Shown here: in pieces, positions 24,867 through 26,327 of the stretch
Numbering within the stretch: the stretch's first letter is position 1
Layout: every line of letters starts with the position of its first letter
DNA from: Pirellulaceae bacterium
Lineage (GTDB): Bacteria > Planctomycetota > Planctomycetia > Pirellulales > Pirellulaceae
Length of the DNA stretch: 64,000 nt
Reading direction: 5' to 3'
Assembly: GCA_022448315.1 (NCBI GenBank)
Contig: JAKVCA010000002.1
Coordinates: 133,015-197,014 of the forward strand
Translations under genes and position numbers: made by a program
Notes under the pieces: generated by a model
What the model was told of the DNA's origin: nothing
Databases searched by the model: none
What the model saw: only the letters and a program-made list of their open reading frames with translations

Positions 24867-26327
24867 ATGAAACGAATCGTCCACGTCATTGCGTTCGGAA
24901 CTTTGGTGTTATTCTGTTTGAGCACCAGAACGACTGTCGCGGCGGAATGGCCTCACGTCTTGGTCATTCTGGTCGATGATATGGGGTATGGAGACCTGCG
25001 TTGTTTCAACGAGGCATCAAAGATACTCACGCCCCAAATCGATCAACTCGCAAGGCAGGGGATGCGTTTTACAGATGCCCACGCCTCAGGGCCCCTGTGT
25101 CACCTTTCCCGTTATGGCCTGATGACGGGTCGCTATCCATTTCGAACAGACTGTGGCGCCTGGCGTCGCCGTCCGGTGATCACGGAAGATCAAATGACGA
25201 TCGCATCGCTTCTCGAACAGAGAGGATATGCGACTGCGATGGTTGGAAAGTGGCATCTTGGTTTCGACGAAAAGGGCTACGACCAACCGTACTCGGGTGG
25301 CCCCGTGGATCGAGGATTTGGATCATTTTTCGGAATCCGCGCCTCGACAGATATACCCCCTTATTTTTACATCCGCGATGACCAAGTCGTCATGCCACCG
25401 ACTCAAGACATTGAGGCGCGTCAAACGGAAGGTTGGTCTCCGATTCAAGGAGAGTTTTGGCGCGCGGGAAAGATCTCGCCCGATTTCAAGCTCGAGGACG
25501 TCTTACCGCGATTCGCCGATGAGGCGGTAAAGGTCATCGAGTCGCATGCGGCCAAGGCCGACGATCAACCCTTGTTTCTTTATTTGGCGTTGCCAGCACC
25601 GCATACCCCTTGGCTGCCCACGAAGGAGTTCGTCGGTCGAACGTCGATCCCACTTTACGGCGATTTTACCTTCATGGTCGACGCCATGGTGGGGCGAGTG
25701 CTCACGGCGTTGGAGCAGGCCCAAATGGACAAAGAGACCCTCGTGATCTTCACTTCAGACAATGGGCCCGTCTGGTACCAGGACGACGTGGACAAGTACG
25801 AGCACGACGCATCAGGGGGATGGCGAGGTATGAAAGCGGATGTGTGGGAGGCAGGTCATCGCATGCCCTTCATCGTCCGCTGGCCGGGGCGAGTTCGAGC
25901 AGGGAGCATCCATACCCAACTCATTTCGTTTGTCGACGTTTTCGCCACCCTTGCGGAATTGACCGAGCAGCCTTTGGAAGGCAATGCCGGACCGGACAGC
26001 TTCAGCTTTCTGGGCGCCCTGTTGGAAGCCGCCGAAGCCGACCAACCCAAACGAACCACTCTCGCACTCGCTTCAGGCAACAACACCATGAGTTTTCGCC
26101 AAGGACCTTGGAAACTGATCCAAGGTTTGGGTTCGGGTGGGTTCAGCAAGCCCTCGAGAATGAAGCCTGAACCTGGCGGCCCGCAGGGCCAACTTTATCA
26201 TTTGGGGGATGATCCAGAGGAAACCAACAACCTCTACTTGCGGGAAAAATCACGCGTGCAGGCCATGCTCAAAGAGTTGCAGCAGATAAAGGAGTCGCAG
26301 GTCAGCCGCCTCTTGGGCAAGCCATGA
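24867..26327 (+). CDS. Secreted sulfatase with CHLSR in place of CxPxR
   Basis: Arylsulfatase-type protein of 486 residues with a signal peptide (FGTLVLFCLSTRTTVAAE). The metal-binding VDDMGYGD is at about residues 36-43, the maturation site is C78-H-L80-S-R82 followed by YGLMTGRYPFR, and the later blocks are VGKWHLGFD and FTSDNGPVW, all family-typical. In nearly all sulfatases position +2 after the cysteine is proline (or alanine in some); here it is leucine. Formylglycine formation may therefore be weak or absent, so catalysis is uncertain although every other visible motif is kept. The ATG at 24867 has AAGGAG six bases upstream; the frame upstream of it has no coding support. Confidence 0.88.
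   Translation: MKRIVHVIAFGTLVLFCLSTRTTVAAEWPHVLVILVDDMGYGDLRCFNEASKILTPQIDQLARQGMRFTDAHASGPLCHLSRYGLMTGRYPFRTDCGAWRRRPVITEDQMTIASLLEQRGYATAMVGKWHLGFDEKGYDQPYSGGPVDRGFGSFFGIRASTDIPPYFYIRDDQVVMPPTQDIEARQTEGWSPIQGEFWRAGKISPDFKLEDVLPRFADEAVKVIESHAAKADDQPLFLYLALPAPHTPWLPTKEFVGRTSIPLYGDFTFMVDAMVGRVLTALEQAQMDKETLVIFTSDNGPVWYQDDVDKYEHDASGGWRGMKADVWEAGHRMPFIVRWPGRVRAGSIHTQLISFVDVFATLAELTEQPLEGNAGPDSFSFLGALLEAAEADQPKRTTLALASGNNTMSFRQGPWKLIQGLGSGGFSKPSRMKPEPGGPQGQLYHLGDDPEETNNLYLREKSRVQAMLKELQQIKESQVSRLLGKP

Follow-up and report, generated by a model that had tools for sequence, protein, structure and literature searches.

The sulfatase encoded at positions 24867-26327 of the window (the whole 64,000-nucleotide stretch of DNA analysed here) reads C-H-L-S-R where the usual formylglycine motif is CxPxR, and this departure belongs to its whole subfamily: 84 of 99 orthologues (~85%) lack Pro at the second position after the cysteine (+2) and have Met, Leu or Val instead. 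Judging from sequence conservation, we consider it fairly probable that the protein is a working, exported sulfatase of the formylglycine type, from a widespread subfamily in which the proline of CxPxR is replaced by Met, Leu or Val and is sometimes kept. The subfamily appears to be centred on Planctomycetota and Verrucomicrobiota. The proline rule thus looks looser than textbooks say, since about 85% of the relatives do without Pro yet keep all other catalytic residues.

The gene starts with ATG and encodes 486 amino acids on the forward strand without an internal stop. Its motif is C78-H79-L80-S81-R82, within the surrounding sequence FTDAHASGPLCHLSRYGLMTGRYPFRT (SGPLCHLSRYGLMTG); the codon of Cys78 occupies 25098-25100 and that of Leu80 (CTT) 25104-25106. 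Both the coordinates and the motif had been given correctly in an earlier note on this DNA, as had the motifs CGPSR and CGASR of the two other sulfatases in the window (L183 and L190). That His at +1 also lies outside the published signature was missed there. The signal-peptide-like start predicts an exported product. The features are as follows.

24867..26327, forward strand: Cys-type S1-like sulfatase gene with CHLSR motif (open reading frame, PF00884 score, S1 fold match)
24867..24944, forward strand: putative signal-peptide-like N-terminal stretch MKRIVHVIAFGTLVLFCLSTRTTVAA (translation; predicted helix at residues 2-19)
24975..24980, forward strand: metal-ligand pair D37-D38 (99/99 orthologues)
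25098..25112, forward strand: formylglycine motif C78-H79-L80-S81-R82 (C, H, S and R in 99/99; position 80 M47/L26/P15/V11)
25248..25256, forward strand: K128-W-H130, active-site Lys and His (99/99 orthologues)
25602..25604, forward strand: H246, active-site His (99/99 orthologues)
25758..25763, forward strand: D298-N299, second metal-ligand pair (99/99 orthologues)
25833..25835, forward strand: K323, active-site Lys (conserved orthologue column)

The protein matches the Pfam Sulfatase profile PF00884 with 185.8 bits (cut-off 25) over profile positions 1-299 of 301, and this match across the catalytic domain bears out its membership of the S1 family. The Cys nucleophile position, the Arg at +4, the metal ligands and the active-site Lys and His are all present. 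The updated core of the PS00523 signature, C-[STACGMV]-[PA]-[STAGF]-R (PMC5066984), is not matched, because +1 is H and +2 is L. PS00523 is a diagnostic signature, and the mismatch lowers the signature match, not the S1 homology. The original PS00523 signature presumably excludes the protein as well.

In an AlphaFold model of the protein (mean pLDDT 77, pTM 0.83), Cys78 heads helix 78-87, and the start of such a helix is what we take to be the usual location of formylglycine in sulfatases. The top structural match is the S1_15 lambda-carrageenan sulfatase 9bas (Z 35.0, rmsd 3.3, 392 residues aligned); further matches are the Pedobacter sulfatase 7stv, S1_19 carrageenan sulfatases, the S1_15 GalNAc-6-O-sulfatase 6s20 and arylsulfatase A (Z about 32). 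The closest solved structures by sequence profile are also S1_15 enzymes, in agreement with the fold search, at about 30-33% identity; S1_19, S1_16 and arylsulfatase A fall within about 3 Z. Because S1_15 enzymes are nearest, the substrate is probably, by a weak analogy, a sulfated sugar of galacto configuration.

Orthologues were gathered from the GTDB collection and from 98 genomes around that of the window, giving a set of 99 CHxSR sequences (window gene included) at 55-64% identity to the window gene. Position +2 is Met in 47 of them, Leu in 26, Pro in 15 and Val in 11 (CHMSR, CHLSR, CHPSR and CHVSR), and none of the 99 has Ala, Ser, Thr, Ile or a charged residue there. All 99 share C78, H79, S81, R82, D37, D38, K128, H130, H246, D298 and N299, in line with the earlier observation that the remaining sulfatase motifs are kept. 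Most members come from Planctomycetota and Verrucomicrobiota; isolated metagenome-assembled genomes assigned to Bacteroidota, Acidobacteriota, Myxococcota and Hydrogenedentota also contribute, and these assignments may be wrong. No relatives were found among viral contigs. The stretch FGIRASTDIPPYFYI (residues 155-169, orthologue alignment A2) is invariant in 20 aligned members and is possibly a substrate-pocket signature of the CHxSR subfamily.

A tree was computed without the motif columns, with ten CVPTR/CVPSR-like sequences as outgroup. The CHxSR clade is separated from these with an SH-aLRT of 100, and position +2 changes 20-21 times on the tree, nine of these changes being between Pro and non-Pro. 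The partner of the window gene is a Verrucomicrobia CHVSR protein (L077; support 89). For eleven pairs of closely related genes with a CHLSR, CHMSR or CHVSR motif, dN/dS is 0.04-0.18, and the genes are therefore under purifying selection. The residue spectrum at +2, the changes on the tree and dN/dS together indicate that +2 is free among bulky hydrophobic residues and not beyond, and that the gene is retained.

These data also bear on how the leucine is to be seen. The earlier note had proposed alignment with the nearest homologues, and held that Pro in all close orthologues would point to a recent mutation or a sequencing error; the alignment makes non-Pro at +2 a clade property, with Pro in just 15 of 99. 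Its picture of one base change turning Pro into Leu is not supported as an account of how this gene acquired its leucine: the clade exchanges several hydrophobic residues at +2, Leu among them, and the closest neighbour in the tree has Val. The idea that the leucine is a sequencing artefact, or an inactivating mutation newly arisen in this strain, draws on the one-base distance from CCT to CTT and on nothing more, whereas CHLSR recurs in 25 other orthologues, CHMSR or CHVSR occurs in 58, and the clade genes are under purifying selection. The orthologue survey refutes this explanation, to which we give practically no chance.

Pro at -2 (P76, window 25092-25094) accompanies a non-Pro residue at +2 in 83 of 84 sequences, against 5 of the 15 with Pro at +2; the CHPSR members mostly have Ala at -2 (10/15). 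We do not call this a compensating change for the lost proline, since the three independent contrasts are too few.

An objection from known enzymes comes from human iduronate-2-sulfatase, where P86L, at the same position, destroys activity and causes severe disease; the equivalent substitution in the mouse enzyme is impairing as well (PMC10185571). Furthermore, FGE is described in the literature as requiring CXPXR. Both points count against a working formylglycine-type enzyme, although iduronate-2-sulfatase evolved without Leu and meets a different maturase. The same inactivation of a human sulfatase (PMC10185571), together with the replacement of a maturation residue that is otherwise strongly conserved, would fit a maintained non-hydrolytic protein, for example a binder of sulfated sugars on the sulfatase fold. 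However, the metal ligands and the catalytic Lys, His and Arg are invariant in the 99 orthologues, and 15 orthologues inside the clade retain Pro, so that we regard such a protein as distinctly unlikely. Of the two interpretations in the earlier note, a maturase that tolerates leucine fits better than a non-catalytic protein, given that none of the known catalytic or metal-binding residues varies among the orthologues.

Departures from Pro and Ala at +2 are not confined to this gene. Among 4058 aligned S1 sulfatases, 87% have Pro and 369 have Ala at +2, each other residue accounts for <1%, and about 4% have neither Pro nor Ala (PMC5066984). The genome that contains the window (G000; 5.03 Mb, 97% complete) has 96 PF00884 matches, and a profile-based census yielded 90 motifs: 74 with Pro, seven with Ala and nine with another residue at +2 (CETTR, CEHTR, CASSR, CAETR, CHSSR, CTNTR, CWVSR, CSVAR and CHLSR; the eight other genes are L013, L018, L019, L146, L152, L153, L162 and L195). 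The CHLSR gene is therefore one of several departures in its own genome, which we count in favour of our preferred reading. The earlier statement that nearly all sulfatases have CxPxR and some CxAxR holds for the literature average; in this genome, however, 9/90 have neither. CWVSR and CSVAR recur in the complete genome G006 (70 sulfatase matches), and thus other subfamilies have dropped Pro too.

In related genomes, three proteins (L311, L350 and L424) have Leu in place of the motif Arg (CCPSL, CRASL and CRPSL) in a common RRGYVPT(S/A)LC context, and probably form one subfamily that lost this Arg. They resemble the inactive-looking planctomycete sulfatases mentioned in PMC5066984.

Neither of the two known maturases was found in the window's own genome. 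Its four FGE-domain proteins read RGGSFEMTAAECR, RGGSWKSDSDQCR, RGGNYQSKPEDCR and RGGSWKDRASSLR at the Cys-pair site, and the copper-binding Cys pair (GGSxxCxxxxC) is absent from all four. The planctomycete FGE profile has no match at E 1e-30 in this 97% complete genome, and the best hit to the anSME profile TIGR03942 scores 23.3 bits against a curated cut-off of 349 and lies in a MoaA-like frame; anSME was accordingly rejected as the maturase of the CHLSR sulfatase. We then screened 60 genomes of the same family, Pirellulaceae, with the planctomycete FGE profile plus Cys-pair motif for FGE and the cut-off for anSME. An FGE with both cysteines is present in 6/60 (G010, G015, G034, G048, G057 and G058) and an anSME above cut-off in 1/60 (G024), whereas neither was found in 53/60, including G006 and G028, two complete single-contig genomes that bear CHMSR sulfatases. 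We found no account of this absence in Pirellulaceae in the open-access literature.

Absence of FGE is nevertheless not a simple cause of the leucine. Two FGE-bearing genomes, G048 and G034, have a CHLSR and a CHMSR member, respectively, and the clade therefore does not simply track FGE absence. Non-P/A motifs are somewhat rarer with FGE: they make up 9/90 (own genome) and 6/69 (G006), or 15/159, in the genomes without it and 3/105 in two genomes with it, a weak difference (pooled Fisher p=0.046) from four genomes with relatedness ignored. G048 and G034 lend some weight to the view that canonical FGE converts the site, accepting a bulky hydrophobic residue at +2, and that the window's genome carries its FGE gene in the 3% missing from the assembly. 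Since the complete CHMSR-bearing relatives G006 and G028 also lack canonical FGE, missing sequence is unlikely to account for every case, and we hold this view to be very unlikely.

A dedicated maturase encoded beside the gene was rejected as well, as the 99 loci, most examined with up to 3 kb per side, share no conserved neighbour. In the window, the gene is flanked on one side by a DUF1501 and PSCyt1/PSCyt2/PSD1 operon on the opposite strand and on the other side by an AlgX-like gene.

The apparent lack of FGE and anSME would also suit an unmodified cysteine that either acts as the nucleophile itself or supports a slower or different ester hydrolysis, with loss of Pro marking release from maturation. 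There is precedent for this, as a choline sulfatase (CAPAR) without formylglycine turns over many times (PMC6189696). Release from maturation should, however, let +2 drift freely, yet only M, L, V and P are seen over about 20 changes, and both Ser at +3 and Arg at +4 are kept in 99/99. In addition, about 90% of the genome's other sulfatases keep the P/A rule, and thus some maturase seems to be active in this genome. A sulfatase with unmodified Cys is elsewhere much slower (PMC6189696), and selection for activity should therefore favour conversion. We consider an unmodified cysteine unlikely.

Most likely, then, the enzyme is active with its Cys78 converted, because the catalytic residues are kept, selection is strong and +2 stays hydrophobic. 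The hydrophobic side chain at +2 would fill the maturase contact that is normally made by Pro, and Cys78 would become formylglycine because the maturation site would need just a hydrophobic contact at +2 and the Arg at +4. Once hydrated, the aldehyde would attack the sulfate ester in the way known from other S1 enzymes. It is less certain which enzyme carries out the conversion: as neither canonical FGE nor anSME was found in the own genome, it may be neither of the two but a so far undescribed system with less strict specificity, which would act on the CHLSR protein and on the genome's other Cys-type sulfatases. More broadly, and as a tentative proposal, Pirellulaceae might convert many Cys-type sulfatases by a non-FGE, non-anSME maturase that reads a relaxed C-x-[hydrophobic/other]-x-R, letting subfamilies such as CH[MLV]SR drop Pro.

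CxPxR is treated as the minimum formylglycine site; genome searches for sulfatases and the design of aldehyde tags both make use of it. A native clade in which Met or Leu is usual at +2 offers ready test substrates for the reach of this rule, and signature searches miss the CH[MLV]SR clade. A search of the open-access literature for CxMxR or CxLxR motifs turned up nothing relevant; the chief studies of FGE specificity are published by subscription. The wider lead, and perhaps the more important one, is that no known maturase was found in planctomycete genomes rich in sulfatases. It raises the question of what activates their dozens of sulfatases.

The proposed conversion resembles the 'third sulfatase maturation system' of E. 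coli, in which Cys-type sulfatases are converted without an identified maturase (Benjdia et al. 2007, cited in PMC6189696). As represented in the citing paper, that system differs in being known as an activity only, without a gene, and a link to tolerance at +2 is not part of it. With S1 sulfatases (PF00884), the CHLSR protein shares the predicted fold (Z about 33-35), the active-site Cys, the Arg at +4, the metal ligands and the Lys and His; it differs in having His at +1 and neither Pro nor Ala at +2, and therefore lies outside the updated PS00523 signature. The nearest solved structures are those of S1_15 (the lambda-carrageenan galactose-6-sulfatases 9bas and 9bau, the BT GalNAc-6-O-sulfatase 6s20 and BT1624, 7oze), but the S1_15 enzymes compared have Pro at +2, whereas the CHxSR proteins are a separate group with the invariant FGIRASTDIPPYFYI. 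The planctomycete CVPTR/CVPSR/CIPSR sulfatases that form the outgroup of the clade (L054-L063) are 45-52% identical; they differ in that nine of the ten have Pro at +2 (Gln in one) and none has His at +1.
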